A stretch of DNA of 64,000 nucleotides from Candidatus Zixiibacteriota bacterium (GTDB lineage: Bacteria; Zixibacteria; MSB-5A5; GN15; FEB-12). The DNA lies in NCBI GenBank assembly GCA_029860345.1, contig JAOUBJ010000010.1, positions 62,001 to 126,000 on the forward strand, in the 5' to 3' direction. Positions 10,779 to 51,887 of this stretch are shown here, piece by piece. The stretch's first letter is position 1; the number at the start of each line of letters is the position of its first letter. The position numbers and the translations under genes were made by a program. The notes beneath the pieces are model-generated. The model did no database searches. It saw only the letters and a list, made by a program, of their open reading frames with translations, and had not been told where the DNA came from.

Positions 10779-11873
10779 TCATTCGCTGACCAGGTGCGCC
10801 CCGCCTGAGCCACCTTCGGTGTGGTCATCGGCGTGCAGGCGTTGTTCAACGACTTTAATGAGAGTAACGAACACGGCCGCGATAATGGGACCCATCACCA
10901 GGCCCAGGAGTCCAAACAGCGCGATCCCCCCCATGATACTGAAAAACAACATTAGAGGATGCATCTCGGTGCGACCGGAGATCATCCACGGTCTGACCAC
11001 ATTGTCGGTCTGACTGATCAGCAAACCTACTGCGATTACTATGATCCCTTTGATATAAGAGCCACCGAATATCAGGATTACCCCGGCCGGTACATAGACA
11101 ATAGAGGCGCCCACGAATGGAATGATAGCCAAAAAGGCCATTATTGCGCCCCAAAAAATGGGCGATGAGATACCGGCCACGGCAAACAATACACCGCCCA
11201 GAAATCCCTGCAAAAGAGCAACCACGACCCCCCCGTACATGGTGGCCTGAATCACTTCGCGGAGGTTTCGAACCGTGCTCTCGACTCGCTTTGCTTTCAG
11301 CGGCATCAGCTTTTTGATCTTGGCGACCAGTTTCACACCATCCGTGAAGAAGTAGTACATGGTGAAAATCATCAGTGCAAAGTAGAACACCGCTTTGGTG
11401 CCGTTGGCCACCAGCCAACTGGTCTGGTTGAGGAGTATCCCGCTGACATTGTTAATGGCGTCACGTGCGATTTCATCCAGGTCTACTTTTGACATGTCGA
11501 AGTAACCCGACAACTCCTCGCGCAAGGTATTGACCCAAGGCAGGTCGAAAGAGAGCAAGCTATCCAATTGGCCGCTTTTGTACAACTCGTTCACTTTTGT
11601 TACCGCGGTTGCTGCTTCGCCGACGACGGCCACGAACAGATAAGTGATCGGCCCAATGATCAACAAAACGATCATTGTGCATAGCAAAGCCGAAGTCAGC
11701 CCGGGTGACTTCACACGGCCAAGTATCCACTCGTAGACCGGGAAGAACAGAATGGCAAAGACCGCCGCCCAACAGATGGGGACGAAAAACGGGATAATGA
11801 TCCGGTAGAACAAATAGAAGAAGATAGCAGCGACCAAAAAGAACACAGCAACCGACAGGTACTCGCGCGTCAT
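10779..11873 (-). CDS. AI-2E/PerM-family permease
   Basis: A 364-residue polytopic membrane protein of the AI-2E transporter (PerM, formerly UPF0118) family. Recognisable blocks are an N-terminal hairpin of two hydrophobic helices, a central soluble region, GGVVVALLQGFLGGVLFAVAG, AIIPFVGASIVYVPAG, and the final block with SQTDNVVRPWMISGRTEMHPL. Members include an autoinducer-2 exporter and Na+/H+ antiporters, so substrate cannot be assigned. A ribosome-binding site AAGGATGAG precedes the ATG. It lies 104 bp upstream of the M14 gene on the same strand; whether they share a transcript is unclear. Confidence 0.88.
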   Translation of the reverse strand: MTREYLSVAVFFLVAAIFFYLFYRIIIPFFVPICWAAVFAILFFPVYEWILGRVKSPGLTSALLCTMIVLLIIGPITYLFVAVVGEAATAVTKVNELYKSGQLDSLLSFDLPWVNTLREELSGYFDMSKVDLDEIARDAINNVSGILLNQTSWLVANGTKAVFYFALMIFTMYYFFTDGVKLVAKIKKLMPLKAKRVESTVRNLREVIQATMYGGVVVALLQGFLGGVLFAVAGISSPIFWGAIMAFLAIIPFVGASIVYVPAGVILIFGGSYIKGIIVIAVGLLISQTDNVVRPWMISGRTEMHPLMLFFSIMGGIALFGLLGLVMGPIIAAVFVTLIKVVEQRLHADDHTEGGSGGAHLVSE

Positions 11874-12345
11874 TTAACTCATCCTTGTTGTTTGCTTGAT
11901 GAAACCTACCGTGACAAGTCAAGCCGATCAATTAAAAACAGTGTGCGCTTCTGCGGTTATCCAGCACGGGACTTTCTGACTCGTTCTCTTCGGGCATTGC
12001 CGAATGGGTGGATTCAGGCTGCGATCTGTGCAAATGGTGTACAGATCGACCGGTCTTGAGTCGATGTAACTTATCGCAAGAAAAGAGGTTACGGCAGTTT
12101 CTGGAATTGTCTGGGGAGTTCGCGTTGGCCTTTGGGGGAATTCGCCCGACCAGAGAATCATATTCATTGAACGTGGATAGATGGGCAGTTTTTCTATTCA
12201 ATTGCCTTAATACTAAGCGATTGGTGCTAAAGGATTTTGGAATGTGGCCGATGAGAATGGCAAGTATCGAAAGTAAGAACTGCGAACAAAACTCCAGCCA
12301 TGGGTCTTGTTCGCACACTGTAACCGTTCAAACAAGGAGTAGAGT
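11874..12345. other. 472-bp gene-free region with inverted repeat
   Basis: No convincing coding sequence; the open frames here show no protein-like composition and no ribosome-binding site. The region separates divergent genes and should hold promoters for both. The clearest element is a perfect 9-bp inverted repeat, TGCGAACAA (12281-12289) and TTGTTCGCA (12307-12315), with a 17-nt centre, ending 18 nt before the ribosome-binding site of the next gene. It could be an operator or a 5' UTR hairpin. Confidence 0.6.
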
Positions 12346-12753
12346 ATGGCTATGCGGAAACGCTCACACACCTCGCGACGCACGTCCAGTCATCGTCGCA
12401 CCATGGGTCATAAAGTGGCCCGTCCGTGGATGCGTGAAGAAATTGCGTTCATGCGCAAGTTCTATCGTAACTATGAGACGACCTGGATCGCTCGTCAGCT
12501 GGGTCGCACAGTGTACTCTGTCCGCTACAAAGCGGTCGACCTGAACATCAAGAAGTCCAACCCCTCCGTATGGAGAGGTAATCGTGGCGCTGCCAACGCC
12601 TTCCGCAAACCGACCTCCCGTTCAACGTGGAAGCCGGCTCGTCGTAAGGTTGCCAAGCGCGGTACCACCCGGACCAAGAGCTGGCGCGCCAGCACCAAGC
12701 GTAAGCCTGCTCGCAAGAGCAAAGCTCGTCGCACCATCCGTCGCAGAAAGTAG
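12346..12753 (+). CDS. Myb/SANT-like HTH protein with histone H1-like tail
   Basis: A 135-residue, strongly basic protein, probably a DNA-binding nucleoid or regulatory factor. Residues about 28-65 form a compact three-helix Myb/SANT-type HTH: WMREEIAFMRKFY, then TTWIARQLGRTVYSVRYKA, matching the pattern W..E..FI...Y...T..IA..LGR...SVR.KA..L seen in bacterial SANT-like domains. Residues about 80-135 are almost entirely K, R, S, T, A and P (for example RKPARKSKARRT), like the C-terminal tail of histone H1 or Hc1/AlgP-type bacterial proteins. AAGGAG sits 6 nt ahead of ATG. A strong intrinsic terminator follows, so it is a single-gene unit. The exact role is unknown. Confidence 0.8.
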   Translation: MAMRKRSHTSRRTSSHRRTMGHKVARPWMREEIAFMRKFYRNYETTWIARQLGRTVYSVRYKAVDLNIKKSNPSVWRGNRGAANAFRKPTSRSTWKPARRKVAKRGTTRTKSWRASTKRKPARKSKARRTIRRRK

Positions 12754-40291: not shown

Positions 40292-43200
40292 TTACAAAGC
40301 CGTTTCAGCCGTCAGCCAGAAGTCGCGCGGATAGAGCCGGTGCACCGTCTGTGGTTGCTCAACGGTAGCAATGTACTCTTCCAACGAGGTAAACTGTGGT
40401 TCCGGTCCGATCAGGAAGAAGTTGGCGTCCTTGCTTTCGGCCAGCGTAGGACCATAGCCTATCAGTACCGGACCGTAGGTTGCTTCCATACGGGCACGAA
40501 GCTGGTCGTACAACCCGTTCTCACTGTCCTTAACATCAAGAACTTTCTGCCGGAAGGCGGCTACTTTTTCAGGCGGGAAGCCGTCGACCAAATCCCTGGC
40601 CATGGCCTGTCCCCGCGCTTCGTAGCGTGAGGGTGCTCGTGAGGCGCCGAATACCAGGGCCACGGCGTAATTGAGCAGAGCCGGGTCTTCCTCCGCCTCT
40701 TTGAGGACGCCTACTACGAAGCGCATGGTCTCGGCCACGTCCGGGCAACGTTCGGCGTAGTAGTTCATCCGCCCGGTGGCCTGGCTGTAACGATAGCCGT
40801 TACTGTAGGCAAGACCGGCTGCCCAGGTTTTCATGAAGATACCGTGGCCGCCACCGCCGGAGTATAGCTTACCGCTGAGACAATCGATAACAGCGTTGGA
40901 GCTGGTGTCATACTGATTGGCATGTTGAGCGGAGAATTGTAACACGCCGTTGCGTGTTCCCTCATGGATCAGGCCGACATAGAGCGGCTGATCCAGACCT
41001 GGCGTGCGGCTTTTCAGACGCTCAAGCACGCGCATGGAAGTTGCATACTGTTGTCGCGCCGATGATCTATCGGAATCCAGCTTGGCCACAAACTGTTCAA
41101 TCATAGCCAGCGAAGCTTGTCGGTCGGCCGTATTGGAAATCATGGTCAAGCGAGCGTTGTCGGATGCTCTGATCAGTTTCAGCACGGCATTGAGGCCGTC
41201 CAGAGCCACTTGTGGTTGCGTCATCAGGTCGGCTTTAGTTTCGTTGCAGAGGTAAGCGAAGTCATCGCCCAGGTTGGCGTCGGGGATCTCATTGAGGCAG
41301 ACCTTGAGTGATTTGGCGATTTCGACCACTTTATCCGCCGCCACCTCAGACAGACCGGAGAGATCGTGGCCAAGCGAGGCTTGCACTTCGGCGTTTTCTG
41401 AACTCTCGACGGCTGTGAGCAGTGCGGTCAAGGCCTCACGGTCGTTGCGCTTATTGAAACCGGCCAGGGCTTTGAGGTAATAAGACAGATCGGCCTGGTC
41501 TTTCTGATCACCCGGCTCGGTCAGCAGCCATTTCATTCGCTGCATGTGATGCGTTTCGGTTAGGAAACAGTAGGTCGACAGAAACAACGGGTTGTCCTGG
41601 AAACGATAACCATTGGCCGGGTAGCGGACCCAGTATTCTTCGGGACCCTTGGTGACATTGCGGTATGAAATCAGTTCCTGATCGATCACATCCATGATGC
41701 GTGGCAGGTTCTCCACCGCGAAATAGGGTGAGTAGAGTACGGCATCCATCCAGCCGAGGGCGTTCTCAAGTTCTTGTCGGTTGTTTCCCTGACCGGAGAT
41801 TACCATCTCAATCCGGCCCGACTCCAGACTGTGATCATAGTATGCACTAACGCCCAGCACTTCACGCCGCAGACGTTCCTGCATTTCATCATAAGGAATC
41901 ACTTCTCCGTCTTTGATAACGCCGACACCGGTCATGGCCGTGGTCAAAAACGGCAGGTAGACCATCAACGACTCCGGCACCACATCCATGCGCAGAGCCA
42001 TTTCGAGGCGCGAGGCGGCCATGTTTTCAAAAGTCGAGGCGACCATCGGGATATTCCCCCCGACCATTACCGTTTCATACTTGAGTTTGCCGTCGAGGGT
42101 CAGCGGTGGATTGTCGATAAAGTCGGGTAGTTTATCGTTGGCCGCGGCTGCTTCGAGAACAGCCGTGTTGGCATCGAACTCTTCCTTGTAGCGAGCGATA
42201 GCTTCCTGCTCGTCGTCGGTGCCGTATTTCTTTTTGAACTCCTCGATATATCCGGCCAGACGTTTGTTTTTGGTCTCGGTGGCTTTGGTGAGCATCTCAG
42301 CCGACGGGGCGGCGCCTACCGCGTATGGTTTCACCGTGAGCATCTTCCAGCGATCGATCTCCTCACGCCAGAAGTTTTTGCCTGAGTCGAGCAACCGACC
42401 AAGCTCGGCATACCGTTCTTTCAATACCAATGACTTTCGGAAACCTTCTTCACGCTCCAGTCCGATCAAAAGCGACAACCAGCCCGAACCGGCGCCTGAG
42501 CGAAAGCCGAACATGGGGGGCGAGTTCAGGTACTTTACGGTCTGCTTCTCATTCTGAATCAGACGCGACCGAGCGCGCTTGTTAAAGTCGGCCAGTTCTG
42601 CAGATCCGTCGGCGAAATCATGCACTTTCTGCATCTCGGCAATAATCAGTGAACGCAGGCTGTCCAGCATCGGTTCGGTAACGTGCTCGTTTTCTATTCC
42701 GGTCAAGGCCATATAGACCGAAACTCCGAGATCGGTGTCGATACCGCTCCAAACATAGTTGCCGCCGACATCGACCTTTCTGGTTTGTGAGTTGATAAAC
42801 AGATCGTACAGATTCGATGTCTGTCCGCTTGAAAAAGTCTCCACAAACAACTCCAGAATAAACAACTGGCCGGCATCAAGCTCAAGATCGTTGGGCCATG
42901 CAAACATGGTGTAGCCGGGGTCCTGGGGGTTCTCGCTGGGGTAGGTGGTAAGCTGCATGGTTCCGACCGGGGCCGAGGTCACCGGCGGGTAGCTGATAGC
43001 CGAAATACCGATAGCGATATCCGAGTCGGCTTCTTCCTGACAGCGTTCCAGGATACCGTTCATGTTTTGCAGGCATTCATCGACCGAGACATCGTCGGGG
43101 ATACTCACCACGGCGCCCATCTGCGACAGATGATGCGTCTCTTTGTGGAATCTGCGCATATCGGCTGGTGTCATCTCGCGCATTACGTCCGGGTTGCCGC

Positions 43201-43873
43201 CGGAATTGTTGGAGAGGGCGTGGTCTTCACCGAAAACCAGTCGGTTCATGGCGCCGCCGTAGTAATACCAGGGCTTTTCAAAACTCGAAATCATCTCGGT
43301 GTAGACGGTACCCTTTTCGTCAATTGACAAAGAACCGTCGTTCTGGTCGACATTGACACCGATATGGCAGACCTCGCGGCGGATCTCTTCGTCGGTGAAA
43401 TCCGGGTGTCTAAGCGCATATAGTTTGGCCTCGAAAATATCATAGAAAGTATCTTCACCGGCTGAGGTGTTGAAATGATAGCAGGTGCGAGACTGTGACG
43501 TGTAGGCGGTAGAGTTGGCCAACGACATATCCTCAAGCACGGATACATAGCGGCCGCGGTTCCCTTTGCCCAAAAGCAGGTGTTCGCAGGCATGCGGTTC
43601 GCCCATCGACGAGGTCGGCGGAGTTTTCACCCACATGAATGACTGCGGTACCGACTCGACCTGCATCAGGTCAATAATAAAGCCGTACTTGTCGGAGACA
43701 AACCGGGCGCCCATAACCTGACCGGCGCCGTTTTCGTACAGATTGACCACGCTGAAGCCGTGAAGCTTCTCATTTGGTTGTTGTGATTCGAGATTAGTGG
43801 CGGCCATCGCCGGCAGGGCCAGCAGCATTGCCATGGCAGTCAGAAGAACAACTACACGCATCCGATTACTCAT
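40292..43873 (-). CDS. secreted M16 (insulinase/PreP-type) zinc metallopeptidase
   Basis: A 1193-residue exported peptidase. The chosen ATG (43873) has GGAG at 7 nt; an upstream in-frame start is weaker. Signal peptide about 1-25 (ending AMAA). The inverted zinc motif HxxEH is intact: H94-A-C-E97-H98, and the third ligand is likely the glutamate in DEEIRREVCHIG. The size and the M16C-associated central region indicate a PreP-like clamshell enzyme made of two M16 halves in one chain, which degrades short peptides. The active site includes a cysteine between H and E, as in the PreP-type HFLEH variation. Monocistronic; role in periplasmic or extracellular peptide turnover is inferred. Confidence 0.87.
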   Translation of the reverse strand: MSNRMRVVVLLTAMAMLLALPAMAATNLESQQPNEKLHGFSVVNLYENGAGQVMGARFVSDKYGFIIDLMQVESVPQSFMWVKTPPTSSMGEPHACEHLLLGKGNRGRYVSVLEDMSLANSTAYTSQSRTCYHFNTSAGEDTFYDIFEAKLYALRHPDFTDEEIRREVCHIGVNVDQNDGSLSIDEKGTVYTEMISSFEKPWYYYGGAMNRLVFGEDHALSNNSGGNPDVMREMTPADMRRFHKETHHLSQMGAVVSIPDDVSVDECLQNMNGILERCQEEADSDIAIGISAISYPPVTSAPVGTMQLTTYPSENPQDPGYTMFAWPNDLELDAGQLFILELFVETFSSGQTSNLYDLFINSQTRKVDVGGNYVWSGIDTDLGVSVYMALTGIENEHVTEPMLDSLRSLIIAEMQKVHDFADGSAELADFNKRARSRLIQNEKQTVKYLNSPPMFGFRSGAGSGWLSLLIGLEREEGFRKSLVLKERYAELGRLLDSGKNFWREEIDRWKMLTVKPYAVGAAPSAEMLTKATETKNKRLAGYIEEFKKKYGTDDEQEAIARYKEEFDANTAVLEAAAANDKLPDFIDNPPLTLDGKLKYETVMVGGNIPMVASTFENMAASRLEMALRMDVVPESLMVYLPFLTTAMTGVGVIKDGEVIPYDEMQERLRREVLGVSAYYDHSLESGRIEMVISGQGNNRQELENALGWMDAVLYSPYFAVENLPRIMDVIDQELISYRNVTKGPEEYWVRYPANGYRFQDNPLFLSTYCFLTETHHMQRMKWLLTEPGDQKDQADLSYYLKALAGFNKRNDREALTALLTAVESSENAEVQASLGHDLSGLSEVAADKVVEIAKSLKVCLNEIPDANLGDDFAYLCNETKADLMTQPQVALDGLNAVLKLIRASDNARLTMISNTADRQASLAMIEQFVAKLDSDRSSARQQYATSMRVLERLKSRTPGLDQPLYVGLIHEGTRNGVLQFSAQHANQYDTSSNAVIDCLSGKLYSGGGGHGIFMKTWAAGLAYSNGYRYSQATGRMNYYAERCPDVAETMRFVVGVLKEAEEDPALLNYAVALVFGASRAPSRYEARGQAMARDLVDGFPPEKVAAFRQKVLDVKDSENGLYDQLRARMEATYGPVLIGYGPTLAESKDANFFLIGPEPQFTSLEEYIATVEQPQTVHRLYPRDFWLTAETAL

Positions 43874-43984
43874 CTCTTTACTCCTTCGCAAAGGCGTTTT
43901 TTTCGTTGATTTATCATACGAGCGAATAGAGGAAATGGCAACGGATTTGATTAATCTTGTTTGGCAGGCAAGCCTGCTTCTTGG

Positions 43985-45269: not shown

Positions 45270-45720
45270 GTCCTCGCTCTTCTGTCATTCTGGCGAAGGC
45301 CAGAATCCAGTCTTCGCGCTCGGAACTGGATGCTGGATCAAGTCCAGCATGACGAGTTTAGTATCTCGTCGAATAACCCACCTGCCACTGCGCTCTGGGT
45401 GGAGTACCGTGTGAGTGGTTTATTCCGATAATCTCCGGGTCCACGCCGCGGCGCGCAGGCGAAGACGGACTCACCCTACAAGACTTCGGCGCAGTAACAA
45501 GGCGCGTAGCGCCACAGAGCCGGCTTGACCGGCCGGGTCCACGCCGCGGCGCGCAGGCGAAGACGGACTCACCCTACAAGACTTCGGCGCAGTAACAAGG
45601 CGCGTAGCGCCAGAGAGCCGGCTTGACCGGCCGGGTCCACGCCGCGGCGCACAGGCGAAGACAGACCCACCCTACGAAGACGGCGTAGCTGGATTCCTGC
45701 TTTCGCAGGAATGACAGCCT
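45270..45720. repeat. intergenic repeat mosaic with 98-bp tandem units
   Basis: A 582-bp gene-free gap. TGTCATTCTGGCGAAGGCC/AGAATCC palindrome at 45283-45309; then a 98-bp unit starting CCGGGTCCACGCCGCGG at 45435, 45533 and (partial) 45631, two full copies nearly identical. Each unit carries an inverted GTAGGG..GGGTCC module plus a spacer with GGCGCGTAGCGCC. A degenerate GATTCCTGC..GCAGGAATGACA palindrome at 45691-45716 ends it. Confidence 0.9.
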
Positions 45721-45781
45721 TTTAACATTCCTTAACCAACTATCTGTTACCTTTACGGCCCCAAAAGCGTCTAAAGGACAG

Positions 45782-46360
45782 ATGGACAGAAACAAGGTCT
45801 TATTCTGGAAACTCGTAGAGCCGGAGCACCTCAAGGCGCGGGCCTACTGCCGCAAACTGATGAGAAACCGGGAGGACGGCGACGATCTCTACCAGGACTC
45901 GCTGGTCAGCGCGCTGACCAAATTTGGGAGTCTCAAAGAGACGAAAGCGTTCAAACCCTGGCTCTACCGGATCATCACCAACGGGTATATCAGCCGCGTC
46001 AGACGTCCGTGGTACCACAGGCTGCTCCCGATAGATGATCAGATCGAGGCGACTGTGGCCGGTGAAAACCCGGTGCCGATGCAGGCCGCCAAGAGGAGGC
46101 TCGAAATAGCGTTTCGAGCGGTCTCGCCTGCCGACAGAGCCTTGATCACGCTCTTTGAAATCCAGGGTTGGTCGGTTGCGGAACTGACCGGGATGACCGG
46201 CAAAACCGCCGGCAACATCAAAGTACGAATGTCGCGCGCCCGCAGCAAAATGCGCGACGCGCTGACCAAGTACTTCGCCCAAGCCGACCCGGATAGACGA
46301 ATTGGAACCATAAACAGTAAGGACAAGGTATGCGTTGTCACGAAGCCCGTCAAAGACTGA
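45782..46360 (+). CDS. ECF-type RNA polymerase sigma factor
   Basis: A 192-residue extracytoplasmic-function sigma factor. Region 2 is seen as AYCRKLMRNREDGDDLYQDS and KAFKPWLYRIITNGYISRVR; region 4 as VSPADRALITLFEIQGWSVA followed by ELTGMTGKTAGNIKVRMSRAR. The sequence is normal in length for an ECF factor and has a short C-terminal extension (DRRIGTINSKDKV). AAGGACAG precedes the ATG. Its 3' end overlaps the anti-sigma gene by 31 bp in another frame, the usual coupling of an ECF factor and its regulator. The signal it serves is discussed under the next gene. Confidence 0.92.
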   Translation: MDRNKVLFWKLVEPEHLKARAYCRKLMRNREDGDDLYQDSLVSALTKFGSLKETKAFKPWLYRIITNGYISRVRRPWYHRLLPIDDQIEATVAGENPVPMQAAKRRLEIAFRAVSPADRALITLFEIQGWSVAELTGMTGKTAGNIKVRMSRARSKMRDALTKYFAQADPDRRIGTINSKDKVCVVTKPVKD

Positions 46361-47763
46361 AAGAACTCAAGGGGCTAATCAGCAATCAGAATTCCGATCT
46401 CGAACTCAACGAGCATCTGAGAGGTTGCACCGCCTGTGCCTCGGTGGCCCGTTCCGAGCGCGCGCTCGAGAGGGATTTCAGGGCGCTGGCTGCTGATGAT
46501 AACAGTGGCGACCTGCCCCTGTCCGTATTGCGTACCCGGGTCGAGGCCGAAGCAGCTTCCGCCGGATACCGCCAAAAGGAGAACTCTCTCATGTCCGCCT
46601 TCACTAATCAGTTGAAAAGAAAACCACGCCTAAGCCTGACTCTCGGGGCGGCAATGATAGTGCTGTTGATCGCTACGCTTATTCCCTTCAAATTCGATCA
46701 GACCGTTGGCTATCAGGTCGCTTTGGCCGGTGTCGACCGCGATCTGGCTATGGACTCAGAAAAGATCGATGTTTTGCTCAAGGAACTTGGTATACAGCAT
46801 GCTGTGGCCGATGTCAGCGATTGCCAGGCGACTTGTCGATTGACAATCTCGGAACTCGATTCAGAGTATGATGTCCAGGTGATCAGAGCCGCCTTTGATG
46901 AACTCGGTAACTGCGTACTGGAAGATGTCCAGGAGGTCTCCGGCCAGGAATCGAACACTATGTTCGGCCATGCCAAGCGTATGGCCTTCCACGTTCGTCC
47001 GGCCGATGAGGCCGGCGACGATCATGAAGTCAGAGAATTCGTTCTTCAACGCTTGCATGAATTGTCGGATGATTCTGGAGAGTTCAGTGTCTTCATGAGC
47101 AAGTGCGGTTCGGTCGATGATGCCACCGGAGATGTGACCATTGATATGGTTGGATTCGGTGACCACAAGAACTTCCACGCCGACAGCATCCATTGCCCGC
47201 CCGGCTGTTTCCCCGGAGGTGCCGGCAGTGTGATCAAGATCGACCGGTCAAGCGGCGCCAATACAATGACCCTTAACGACAAGGATGGCCACGTCCAGGT
47301 GTTCGATCTCGACGACCCCGAAGCTATTGCCAAGATCAACGAACTGGGTCTTGATCTTGATATGCTCACCAAGTCCGGTTGCGGCAGTGGCGCCAACATC
47401 ATTTGCCGGAAACTGGAACTTATCGATGAGGACCAAAGCGATCAGGAGTCTGCCGCCAAGGAATCCGATGAACCGAAACTGCCCGACACATACAGTCTGG
47501 CCCAAAACTATCCCAATCCGTTCAACCCGAACACGACTATCAGCTACCGTCTGCCGAAAGCCCAGCAGGTGACGCTTGAAATATACAACATCAACGGACG
47601 GAGAGTCACCACGCTGGTCGATGGACAACAGTCGGCCGGTGAACATTCGGTCGAGTGGAATGCCACTGATGACTCAGGCGCATCGGTCGCCTCGGGAGTC
47701 TACTTCTACCGTCTGACGGCCGGTGAGTTCTCCCAGAGCAAAAAAATGTCGTTGGTCAAGTAA
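46330..47763 (+). CDS. zinc-finger anti-sigma factor fused to T9SS-type sorting domain
   Basis: A 477-residue membrane protein. Residues 1-45 form the zf-HC2-type anti-sigma domain: C3/H4 and H29-LRG-C33-TA-C36. One membrane helix (about 101-120, LSLTLGAAMIVLLIATLIPF) places the remainder outside the cytoplasm. That part (about 121-383) is unassigned, with several cysteines (CQATC, CPPGC, GCGSG). The last roughly 94 residues are a complete type-A sorting/FlgD-like domain: NYPNPFNPNTTISYRLP, TLEIYNINGRRVTTLVDG, GVYFYRLTAG, MSLVK. Such domains usually sit on soluble exported proteins. The start ATG follows AAGG and overlaps the sigma gene. An intrinsic terminator follows. Confidence 0.85.
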   Translation: MRCHEARQRLKELKGLISNQNSDLELNEHLRGCTACASVARSERALERDFRALAADDNSGDLPLSVLRTRVEAEAASAGYRQKENSLMSAFTNQLKRKPRLSLTLGAAMIVLLIATLIPFKFDQTVGYQVALAGVDRDLAMDSEKIDVLLKELGIQHAVADVSDCQATCRLTISELDSEYDVQVIRAAFDELGNCVLEDVQEVSGQESNTMFGHAKRMAFHVRPADEAGDDHEVREFVLQRLHELSDDSGEFSVFMSKCGSVDDATGDVTIDMVGFGDHKNFHADSIHCPPGCFPGGAGSVIKIDRSSGANTMTLNDKDGHVQVFDLDDPEAIAKINELGLDLDMLTKSGCGSGANIICRKLELIDEDQSDQESAAKESDEPKLPDTYSLAQNYPNPFNPNTTISYRLPKAQQVTLEIYNINGRRVTTLVDGQQSAGEHSVEWNATDDSGASVASGVYFYRLTAGEFSQSKKMSLVK

Positions 47764-47787
47764 CAGAGAAAAACACTCACGTCGCAT

Positions 47788-47823
47788 AAACGGCTCGGTC
47801 GGACTATCCGATCGAGCCGTTTT
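47788..47823. terminator. terminator between convergent genes
   Basis: Stem ACGGCTCGGTCGG paired with CCGATCGAGCCGT, short loop, T4 run on the plus strand; the A-rich left edge gives a weaker T-run on the minus strand, so it may serve both convergent genes. Confidence 0.85.
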
Positions 47824-47858
47824 CCTGGTTGGTCTGTCTAATCTGTTGGAGAGTGGTG

Positions 47859-48789: not shown

Positions 48790-50112
48790 ATGAAAAGCGT
48801 TCTTGTGTTCGCATCGCTGCTCGCTGTTGTGGCTGGTACTGTTGCGGCCGAAGCGCCCTTGTTCGAGTGGGCCACCGCCTACGATGTCGGCAACGGACCG
48901 CACTCGGTGTGGGCGGCCGACTTTAACGGGGATAGTTTCGACGACGTGGTCATCGCCGTTGATCTCGATGCAGCCATTTCTGTCTTTCTCAATCTTGGGG
49001 ATGGATCGTTTGATGAGCCCACCAGCTATCCGGTAGGTATCAATCCACTATCGGTCATGGCCGCCGATCTTGACGGTGACGACCATATCGATATAGCGGT
49101 GGCCAATGTCGATGACAACACCGTTTCGGTGCTCATAAACGACGGCTCCGGGAATTTCGGTGCGCAAATCAAGTATCCGGTACACAACAAACCACACGGT
49201 GTTTACGCCGCCGACTTAAACGGCGACAACGCGCTTGACCTGATGACGGCCAATGCTTATTCGGATGACGTAACGCTTTTGTTCAACGACGGTGACGGCA
49301 CCTACTCAGGCCGCGTAGATTACCAGATGGGTCTCCGCCCAATCGTAGTAGTGGCGGTGGACCTGGACGGCGACGACGATCTCGACCTGGTCGATGTAAA
49401 TCAAAGTAGTTTCAGTATTGGCATTCGTCTCAACGAAGGCAACGGAGTTTTCACGCCGCAGTTTTTCTATTCGGTAGGCGAATCGCCGCACTGGTTGGTG
49501 GCTGTCGACATCGACGATGACGGTGACATCGATATCGCCACGGCCAACCAGGGCGGAGCCAGTATTACGGTTTTGAAAAACCACGGCAACGGTAGTTTCG
49601 GCAACCGGGTCGATTACCCAGCCGGGTCCGGTCCGCGAGGTATCTGTAGTGGCGATGTCGACAACGATGGCGATATCGATCTGGCCGCGGCCAATTTCTA
49701 CACGAACGACGTATCGCTGTATCTCAACAACGGCAGCGGCTCGTTTGCGACTGAGATTCGGTTGCCCGTCGGGTCCGGCTCAATATCGGTGTTTTCTGCC
49801 GATATCGATGCTGATGACGATATGGATTTGCTGACGGCCAATTTTAACGGGGGCAATTTCAGCTTGCTGAAAAACCTAACCGTCTGTTGTAAAGGTCCCA
49901 TTCGCGGTGATGTGAATTACAACGACGGTCCGGTCATCGACATCTCAGATTTGGTCCACCTGTTCGAATGGATGTTCTTTGGGGGACTTACTCCCATGTG
50001 CATGGCCGAAGCAGATATTGACGGTAGCGGTCTGCCGGTTGACATCGCCGACCTGGTTTATCTGGTCGACTTTATGTTCAGCGGAGGGCCCCAACCGGCC
50101 CCGTGTCCTTAG
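48790..50112 (+). CDS. seven-bladed FG-GAP propeller with dockerin-like module
   Basis: A 440-residue secreted protein. Signal peptide about 1-20 (ending TVAAE). Seven repeats of the ADFNGDSFDD/ADLDGDDHIDIAVAN type can be counted, each with a DxDxDxxxD calcium loop, enough for a single closed seven-bladed beta-propeller of the integrin-alpha/VCBS type. A CC pair then leads to the dockerin-like module (ISDLVHLFEWMFFGG and VDIADLVYLVDFMFSGG). Expected role: calcium-dependent extracellular binding; ligand unknown. Its stop codon overlaps that of the convergent PQQ-repeat gene by 4 bp. It shares its signal-peptide type and propeller size with the 25387-28398 protein but not its C-terminal domain. 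Confidence 0.87.
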   Translation: MKSVLVFASLLAVVAGTVAAEAPLFEWATAYDVGNGPHSVWAADFNGDSFDDVVIAVDLDAAISVFLNLGDGSFDEPTSYPVGINPLSVMAADLDGDDHIDIAVANVDDNTVSVLINDGSGNFGAQIKYPVHNKPHGVYAADLNGDNALDLMTANAYSDDVTLLFNDGDGTYSGRVDYQMGLRPIVVVAVDLDGDDDLDLVDVNQSSFSIGIRLNEGNGVFTPQFFYSVGESPHWLVAVDIDDDGDIDIATANQGGASITVLKNHGNGSFGNRVDYPAGSGPRGICSGDVDNDGDIDLAAANFYTNDVSLYLNNGSGSFATEIRLPVGSGSISVFSADIDADDDMDLLTANFNGGNFSLLKNLTVCCKGPIRGDVNYNDGPVIDISDLVHLFEWMFFGGLTPMCMAEADIDGSGLPVDIADLVYLVDFMFSGGPQPAPCP

Positions 50113-51887
50113 TTACAAACCGGCGGCGGGCCACCTGTAAACATAAAGTCAACCAAGTACACTAAATCCGAAATGTCGAGCGCGCCCGAGGCATCAATGT
50201 CGGCCGCATTGAAAATCGGTGGTGGCGGTCCGCCGGTGAACATGAAGTCTACCAGGTAGACCAGGTCAGAGATATCGGGACCGGCTCCATCACCGCTGAT
50301 GTCGCCACAAATATACGGCAGGGCGGTGGTCGACTCGAAAGCCCCGAAGGCGGTGTCGTTCGGCAGATTCTCATCAGCGGCAAGCAGTGTGAACACGGTC
50401 GCCGTGTAGGCAGTGCCGCTATCCGGCCCGACAGTCCAGGGACCAAACGTAATGGACTTGGTGGTGCTACCCGGAGCGTTGGGAACACTCACCGTGTCGG
50501 TATAGACCGGGGAGCCATCTTCTTCGATTATAAAGACGGCCTCAAGCGCCTGATTGGTCATGCGGTAGTTGCGAACCGTTGCGGTGGGTGAAACACTCGA
50601 ATTGACTTCCACTTCCGGTATGACATCAACCGAAATAGCGCCCATGTCCGGCGATCCGTTACCCAGCGCATACAGCTTACCGTCGTCGGAACCAACGTAT
50701 ATGTATCCGTCCCCGCCGATAGTAACCGAAGATGCGATACCGCCGCCGGTGGGATAGCTCCACTTCACGGAACCATCTTCCGGACGTAGCGCGTACAAGT
50801 TACCGTCGCGCGAGCCGATATAGATTGTGCCGTCGGCATCGACGGTTGGTGAGGCATCCACCTTACCGCCGGTCTTGTATTTCCATTTCTCGACGGCATG
50901 GGTGCCCATATCGACAAGGGCGTAGACGCAACTGTCGTAAGAGCCCATGTAAATCGTCCCATCGAAACCTATAGCCGGTGATGATTCGCATCCACCCATG
51001 GGGTAGGACCATTTGCGATTGCCGTCGGCGGTTATGGCGAAGAAATTGGTGTCGGCCTCAAACGGTTCCTGGCCCATGCCGGCGGCGCCATATCCATCGG
51101 TGCCGATATAAACCGTGCCGTCGTCACCGATAGCGGGCGAGCAGTCGATCAAGTGACCGTCATAGAAAGTTCCAAGCGGATGTTGCCAGACAATACTGCC
51201 GAAAGGAATGGAGTCCCGGAAGACTGTAATATTGTGGTCTTTGGACCCGAAAACCGCCAGTCCGTCATCCCGAAGCGCCGGTGAAGAAAACACACACCAA
51301 CCAAGCGGATACCACCAGAGTATATTGCCGTCAAGATCAATGCCGAAAGCTCGGAAACTAAGTGCTCCGATATAGATAACACCGTTATCGCCGATAACCG
51401 GAGAACCGTAAACCGGCCAATCACCCAGGTTGGTTTTCCATTTCAACTTGCCATAGGTGCCGGAATCTTCAACAGCATACAAGTGCGCATCGAGCGAACC
51501 AAAATACAGCGTGCCGTCATCTCCGACAGCCGGGGATGAGTGCACACCCGAGGTCTGTCCATCAGTGTTACCGGAATCGGTCTTGAACTGCCATTTGAGC
51601 GAACCGTCGGGGTTGAGAGCATACAAGCTCGAATCGCCGCCGCCGGTGTAGTATCCGCCGGCGCCGATGTAGAGAGTGCCGTTGTGTCCAATGGTCACTG
51701 ATCCGGTGACTGCATCCTGAGCCTGGAATGTCCAGTAGAGATCGGCCGTGGTCGGTCCGGTATAATCTGAGCGAGCCGTATGTTTGCGGTCATGACGAAA
51801 CATAGGCCAGGGGCTTTCGGCTGGTGACTGGGCCGGGATCAAGCCAACCGCTATCAGGATTAGTAGTAGAACGGTGATTCGCTGCAT
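50109..51887 (-). CDS. PQQ-like eight-bladed propeller with dockerin-like module
   Basis: A 592-residue secreted protein. Signal peptide about 1-23. The main part is a PQQ-like (quinoprotein-type) beta-propeller: eight blades of the form SSPAVGDDGTLYFGS/GSPVIGDNGVIYIGA with W-K/W-x motifs (LKWKTNLG, VKWSYPTG). No quinone-ligand or catalytic residues are recognisable, so a structural or binding role is more likely than dehydrogenase activity. A further Ig-like domain (about 405-510; VEVNSSVSPTATVRNYRM) precedes the dockerin-like module (GDISGDGAGPDISDLVYLVD and DIDASGALDISDLVYLVD). Both dockerin-like halves end in MFTGGPPP. Confidence 0.87.
   Translation of the reverse strand: MQRITVLLLILIAVGLIPAQSPAESPWPMFRHDRKHTARSDYTGPTTADLYWTFQAQDAVTGSVTIGHNGTLYIGAGGYYTGGGDSSLYALNPDGSLKWQFKTDSGNTDGQTSGVHSSPAVGDDGTLYFGSLDAHLYAVEDSGTYGKLKWKTNLGDWPVYGSPVIGDNGVIYIGALSFRAFGIDLDGNILWWYPLGWCVFSSPALRDDGLAVFGSKDHNITVFRDSIPFGSIVWQHPLGTFYDGHLIDCSPAIGDDGTVYIGTDGYGAAGMGQEPFEADTNFFAITADGNRKWSYPMGGCESSPAIGFDGTIYMGSYDSCVYALVDMGTHAVEKWKYKTGGKVDASPTVDADGTIYIGSRDGNLYALRPEDGSVKWSYPTGGGIASSVTIGGDGYIYVGSDDGKLYALGNGSPDMGAISVDVIPEVEVNSSVSPTATVRNYRMTNQALEAVFIIEEDGSPVYTDTVSVPNAPGSTTKSITFGPWTVGPDSGTAYTATVFTLLAADENLPNDTAFGAFESTTALPYICGDISGDGAGPDISDLVYLVDFMFTGGPPPPIFNAADIDASGALDISDLVYLVDFMFTGGPPPVCN

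Follow-up and report, generated by a model that had tools for sequence, protein, structure and literature searches.

Why should a membrane-anchored anti-sigma factor end in a sorting domain of the type IX secretion system (T9SS)? The question is raised by a two-gene operon from Candidatus Zixiibacteriota bacterium, which lies within a stretch of 64,000 nucleotides that was analysed as a whole (the window). The initial annotation, made from the letters alone, had read an ECF sigma factor followed by an anti-sigma protein with a cytoplasmic zinc finger, one membrane helix, a cysteine-containing outer region and an intact C-terminal sorting domain, and it had proposed a self-monitoring circuit for protein secretion in which engagement or processing of that domain would release the sigma factor. 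Our leading answer, which we hold tentatively and regard as close to an even call, is an autoregulated, T9SS-linked sigma/anti-sigma cassette in which the tethered C-terminal domain (CTD) and a shorter twin of the same protein would tie sigma release to secretion.

The first gene (45782–46360, forward strand) encodes a protein of 192 amino acids (aa) and was correctly called as an ECF sigma factor: it contains regions 2 and 4 alone, above family cut-offs. A profile search matched Sigma70_r2 (E = 3.7e-11) and Sigma70_r4_2 (E = 7e-7), both above their gathering scores, with bit scores of 43.1 for PF04542 (cut-off 24), 29.2 for PF08281 (25.7) and 62.5 for TIGR02937 (42.9). The second gene (46330–47763, forward strand) encodes the anti-sigma factor with its C-terminal T9SS sorting domain (477 aa) and starts 31 nucleotides (nt) inside the sigma gene. 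It is followed by a 16-bp hairpin and a short U run (47787–47824, forward strand; fold z-score −4.2), a probable terminator ending the two-gene unit. Directly upstream of the sigma promoter, a 98-nt unit is repeated in tandem (2.5 copies, 96% alike; 45435–45681), and no RNA families were found within the window.

We searched 132 genomes of the phylum with the part of the anti-sigma protein that precedes the sorting domain and found relatives in 61 of them. The sorting domain is carried by 26 loci in 23 genomes (the sorting class), and an ECF sigma gene lies directly upstream in 26/26. Uniqueness to this assembly, which the initial annotation had named as grounds for discarding its proposal, is therefore contradicted by the recurrence of the architecture, and an assembly artefact was rejected on the same counts. 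Intact loci number 22, from 21 genomes and five families across the taxonomic class; in three of the others the domain is degraded, and the remaining one is truncated at the end of its contig. The 31-nt overlap between the two genes recurs in 23 of the 26 sorting-class loci, and a Shine–Dalgarno (SD) sequence is present at the full-length anti-sigma start in 25 of them. Paralogues without the sorting domain fall into short forms of about 200–240 aa and extended forms that reach about 360 aa, and repeated GKTDxEI..KL modules are found in several of the latter. In a family tree built from the first 215 residues, a single clade for the sorting class was rejected (AU p = 0.013) and the class forms a grade with 5 changes, so that the domain would be either an old trait kept with losses or one gained more than once. 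Among the long-frame candidates examined from beyond the phylum, a thin sample, we found no CTD-bearing anti-sigma factors.

The zinc finger named by the initial annotation stood in part. C3 and the H29-x3-C33-x2-C36 motif of the cytoplasmic anti-sigma domain (46330–46503, forward strand) are invariant in 22/22 homologues, but Pfam zf-HC2 gave no match above threshold on the protein, and an NCBIfam anti-sigma model fell below its cut-off (E = 9e-4). With the zf-HC2 profile silent, the case for a zinc-binding domain is made by the motif, by its lack of variation among 22 homologues and by the operon context; the protein shares with class I zinc anti-sigma (ZAS) factors an N-terminal Cys, H-x3-C-x2-C and an adjacent ECF gene. 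The single membrane helix was rightly placed: one hydrophobic segment begins at about residue 101 (residues ~101–119; 46630–46686, forward strand), a transmembrane helix or signal anchor recognized by hydropathy and present as a helix in an AlphaFold2 model, which we computed from the family alignment (mean pLDDT 68, with a disordered spacer). Beyond it, the model has a periplasmic ferredoxin-like domain (residues 119–210; 46684–46959, forward strand; pLDDT mostly above 90) with a beta-alpha-beta-beta-alpha-beta fold, whose neighbours in fold searches were generic ferredoxin-like only (SbtB/PII-like, E about 0.01 or worse). The description of a cysteine-containing outer region was correct but imprecise: what is conserved is C165-x3-C169, an invariant pair within this domain that we would guess forms a disulfide or binds metal, and the remaining outer cysteines lie mostly within a hypervariable spacer. 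This spacer (46960–47478, forward strand) is acidic (20% D+E), largely disordered and between 112 and 271 aa long among homologues. Mean identity among intact members is 0.58 in the CTD, 0.42 in the ferredoxin-like domain, 0.35 in the zinc domain and 0.16 in the spacer.

What the initial annotation missed is a second start within the anti-sigma gene. The internal SD sequence AAGGAG (46576–46581, forward strand) lies 9 nt before an in-frame ATG at 46591 (Met88), which is invariant in 22/22 homologues and stands 12–15 residues ahead of the helix in sorting-class loci. An SD match of at least 4 nt occurs at Met88 in 25 of the 26 sorting-class loci by a fixed rule, and in 26/26 when the best of the nearby Mets is used, compared with 14% of 501 other internal Met codons. 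Synonymous reshuffling leads to an expectation of 8.6/26 matches, with a maximum of 14 in 300; these loci are related, so P-values should not be taken at face value, and the stronger arguments come from the change of phase and from the short paralogues. All three codon phases are represented among the SD cores, which overlie varied residues (KE, RE, QE, IG, LG), and an SD is found at the internal start in 31 of 37 extended but just 2 of 22 short paralogues, and one of the latter two is a contig-truncated sorting-class gene. In short paralogues, which share the helix and the first outer domain, the internal start is nearly absent. It is also present in extended paralogues without a CTD, which ties it to the long outer region and not to the CTD specifically. 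The residue that follows the internal Met is S, A, T or G more often than in the comparison (78% vs 33%), and such small second residues are the usual look of real N-termini. No comparable internal start was seen in seven anti-sigma genes from other phyla. Conserved in frame and beyond chance, the SD and start codon have the properties of a dual-start gene, and they strongly indicate a predicted second product of 390 aa (46591–47763, forward strand) with a positively charged n-region, the membrane helix, the outer domain and the sorting domain, which would be blind to the sigma factor as it is without the sigma-binding domain.

This second product offers another reason for the label, in that the cargo may be the shorter form rather than the regulator. 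One open reading frame would then encode both a regulator and, from Met88, a surface or secreted T9SS protein, with the CTD playing no part in sensing and the frame being simply shared. We consider this somewhat unlikely, while granting that several observations speak for it. The internal start is conserved across the sorting class (25–26/26 loci), the Met88 form begins like a signal or anchor, with a charged n-region and hydrophobic stretch reminiscent of a Sec signal (in the full-length form the hydrophobic helix is internal, not N-terminal), the spacer evolves fast, as in surface proteins, and the sigma factor seems to drive its own operon only, so that the product may be the output. Set against these, no typical signal peptidase cleavage site was seen by eye after the hydrophobic stretch, the confident beta strand that begins at residue 119 in the model suggests that the product is more likely to stay anchored, and the spacer is without a recognizable effector domain.

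The label itself is a genuine T9SS sorting domain, and its reading as intact was borne out. The type A domain (residues 390–477; 47497–47760, forward strand) scores 48.4 bits against TIGR04183 (cut-off 23), is likewise above cut-off for PF18962 and FlgD_ig, opens with QNYPNPFNP and closes with KKM-x-LLK at the exact C terminus, ending at the last residue of the anti-sigma factor. AlphaFold predicts an Ig-like fold for this region (about 390–477; pLDDT about 90), matching FlgD (top), PorU, PorZ and the RemZ CTD bound to SprA–PorV, and the domain combines two marks of type A, the seven-stranded Ig-like fold and a near-invariant Lys close to the C terminus. In structures of the T9SS translocon, this near-invariant Lys contacts PorV (PMC10994853); it most likely corresponds to K472, which is invariant in homologues, as is the C-terminal K477. 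Divergence of the anti-sigma CTD (0.53 for the trimmed domain) resembles that among CTDs of unrelated cargo in the source genome (0.49), as it should if one translocon recognizes both. Chimeras that combine distant species can fail (PMC11285876). The source genome also encodes the translocon and sortase, including SprA as a single open reading frame of 2017 aa and a full-length PorU adjoining a PorV/PorQ-family protein, together with 68 sorting domains. The SprA family is present in all 78 high-quality genomes; SprA is nearly universal in the phylum, and co-occurrence of cassette and T9SS therefore carries no information.

These features of the CTD bear on the possibility that we are looking at an ordinary ECF/anti-sigma pair, in which the ferredoxin-like domain would sense a signal in the envelope (a ligand, or redox state via C-x3-C) and the CTD would be a FlgD-like cap or ligand-binding tail with no role in the T9SS. 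FlgD is indeed the top fold match, and the GYEVAxAGVD domain and the cysteine pair make up the family core, occurring also in forms without the CTD. However, a mere tail is hard to reconcile with scores above the TIGR04183 and PF18962 cut-offs, with both terminal motifs and with a rate of evolution equal to that of real cargo CTDs, and we judge this explanation unlikely.

For the preferred reading, a T9SS-linked cassette under its own control, the promoter provides evidence on the self-control. An autoregulatory ECF promoter, TGTTACCTTT-N13-CGTCTAA, is located at 45745–45774 (forward strand) with its −10 element ending 7 nt before the sigma ATG. Upstream of the sigma gene, a TGTWACcTTT-like −35, a spacer of 16–17 and a TGTCTWA-like −10 are found in all 26 sorting-class loci, and in each of them the sigma ATG follows 6–8 nt past the −10, a distance which suggests that the cassette message is near-leaderless. 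The own promoter has a PWM score of 24.8 (next best in the window, 10.5), and in the 4.76-Mb source genome the exact pattern is found at its own operon and nowhere else; allowing up to 2 mismatches yielded 3 matches in this genome versus 5 in a reversed control. Across 21 genomes (the source genome and 20 relatives), we found 17 exact matches with a narrower −10, including 10 own promoters and 7 non-self sites, versus 21 in the reversed control; an exact search has a sensitivity of about half, which leaves room for a few weaker targets and excludes a large regulon of similar promoters. Only one non-self match resembles a real target: in a relative, a perfect copy of the sigma promoter precedes the gene for a MacB-like ABC transporter by about 330 nt (L160; G014:C290:1472–1501).

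Taken from these scans, the regulon appears to be the cassette's own operon alone. The promoter mapping suggested by the initial annotation returned a conserved autoregulatory promoter and no wider regulon above the reversed control. Its model stays in play as one possibility, but the part that invokes a regulon is unsupported, as the scans gave no evidence that the sigma factor tunes secretion genes. A secretion-stress regulon, in which freed sigma would induce T9SS machinery or substrates in the manner of PorXY–SigP, does have a precedent in P. gingivalis, where the CTD protein PorA works upstream of SigP, an ECF factor driving T9SS genes, and where a secretion feedback has been proposed (PMC7712824). 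Here it is very unlikely and unsupported, given that no good promoter match precedes sprA or the porU/porV-type cluster in the source genome, that non-self matches are fewer than in the control and that no conserved neighbour genes pointing to a regulon were found around the cassette loci.

Lastly, it is highly improbable that the internal SD acts as a translational pause aiding membrane insertion of the helix and not as a start. Its position immediately before the helix, seen throughout, would suit a pause, but a pause would require no invariant ATG at a set distance and no small residue in second place, and short paralogues insert a comparable helix without an internal SD.

In the preferred T9SS-linked cassette, the sigma factor would transcribe its own operon from the conserved promoter, the N-terminal zinc-binding domain of the anti-sigma factor would keep it at the inner membrane, and the ferredoxin-like domain, flexible spacer and sorting domain would be shown to the periplasm. 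The second ribosome-binding site and ATG before the helix would yield the sigma-blind twin with an identical outer part, and SprA/PorV would capture the sorting domain of both the full-length form and the twin. From this we infer that the tethered tail, once engaged or processed (or on failing to be), would expose the full-length form to regulated proteolysis, freeing the sigma factor and boosting the cassette, and that the twin would compete for the same signal, setting its threshold, or would be exported cargo. Secretion sensing by the anti-sigma factor is plausible. The more specific proposal, that regulator and twin compete for the T9SS and that the secretion state sets transcription of the cassette, is possible, if on balance doubtful. 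A regulon limited to the own operon counts against secretion sensing, because its benefit is then hard to see.

Several known systems share parts of this arrangement. Class I (ASDI/zinc) membrane anti-sigma factors (RsiW, RseA and ChrR classes) are alike in operon logic, H-x3-C-x2-C, single helix and autoregulated promoter, but differ from the present protein, whose extracytoplasmic end is a T9SS sorting domain and whose gene has a conserved internal start; the words 'sorting' and 'secretion' are absent from a survey of class I anti-sigma domains (PMC7406223). The PorA/PorXY–SigP system of Porphyromonas gingivalis likewise has a CTD-bearing protein upstream of an ECF sigma factor (PMC7712824), but PorA is a surface protein acting via a two-component system, whereas here the CTD belongs to the anti-sigma factor itself, and for the present sigma factor we found nothing corresponding to the T9SS regulon of SigP. 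RsgI anti-sigma factors of Clostridium thermocellum sense a substrate outside the cell through an extracytoplasmic module and undergo stepwise proteolysis (PMC12203970). An extracytoplasmic module is common to both, but that of the present protein is an export label, not a substrate sensor. FlgM/FliA and ExsE-type regulators are soluble and exported, and through them transcription reads the activity of a secretion machine; it would likewise read secretion activity here, whereas the present anti-sigma factor is membrane-anchored and T9SS-linked. Two isoforms from one gene, as predicted here for an anti-sigma gene, are known from the dual-start bacterial genes HrcQ/SctQ (PMC8553256) and SigR/SigR′, where SigR′ is used for feedback in an ECF system (PMC4921905).

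In open-access papers, we found no anti-sigma factor with a T9SS sorting domain and none with a conserved internal start. The main lead that we found on how T9SS bacteria sense T9SS function is PorA–PorXY–SigP, from one genus. If our reading is true, a tethered anti-sigma factor with its own export signal would be a direct, minimal sensor, and the competing labelled anti-sigma factor and twin would be a new kind of secretion-coupled gene switch. The conserved internal start suggests that sigma circuits may be tunable by a sigma-blind isoform, which could be found in other anti-sigma genes.

Additional observations concern the surroundings and relatives of the cassette. Cassette neighbourhoods contain a family of extracellular proteins, some of them dockerin-type, that recurs loosely and is common in the source genome. 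In the window, two adjoining genes (48790–50112 and 50109–51887) encode exported repeat proteins (FG-GAP and PQQ-like propeller, respectively) with dockerin-like C-terminal repeats (ISDLVYLVDFMFTGGPPP), not sorting domains, and a 1199-aa protein encoded at 40292–43891 (reverse strand) has only weak similarity to M16 peptidases (E = 0.002). Two more ECF/anti-sigma cassettes of the family are present in the source genome (L068, G000:C3:140802; L111, G000:C5:157322), one short and one extended, with promoter variants GGTAACC..CGTCTTA and TGAAACC..TGTCTTA, one per class. Extended paralogues without a CTD (L073, L075, L077, L085, L086, L088 and others) have 2–3 ferredoxin-like modules of the pattern GKTDAEIEAEIRAKLAEQGI..VTVTTxPDGxRxI outside the membrane, and the internal start is also present in them. 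At one sorting-class locus (L141, in G027), the CTD-bearing anti-sigma gene is followed, at about 11051–12596, by a gene for a di-haem cytochrome peroxidase-like protein that itself carries a sorting domain.
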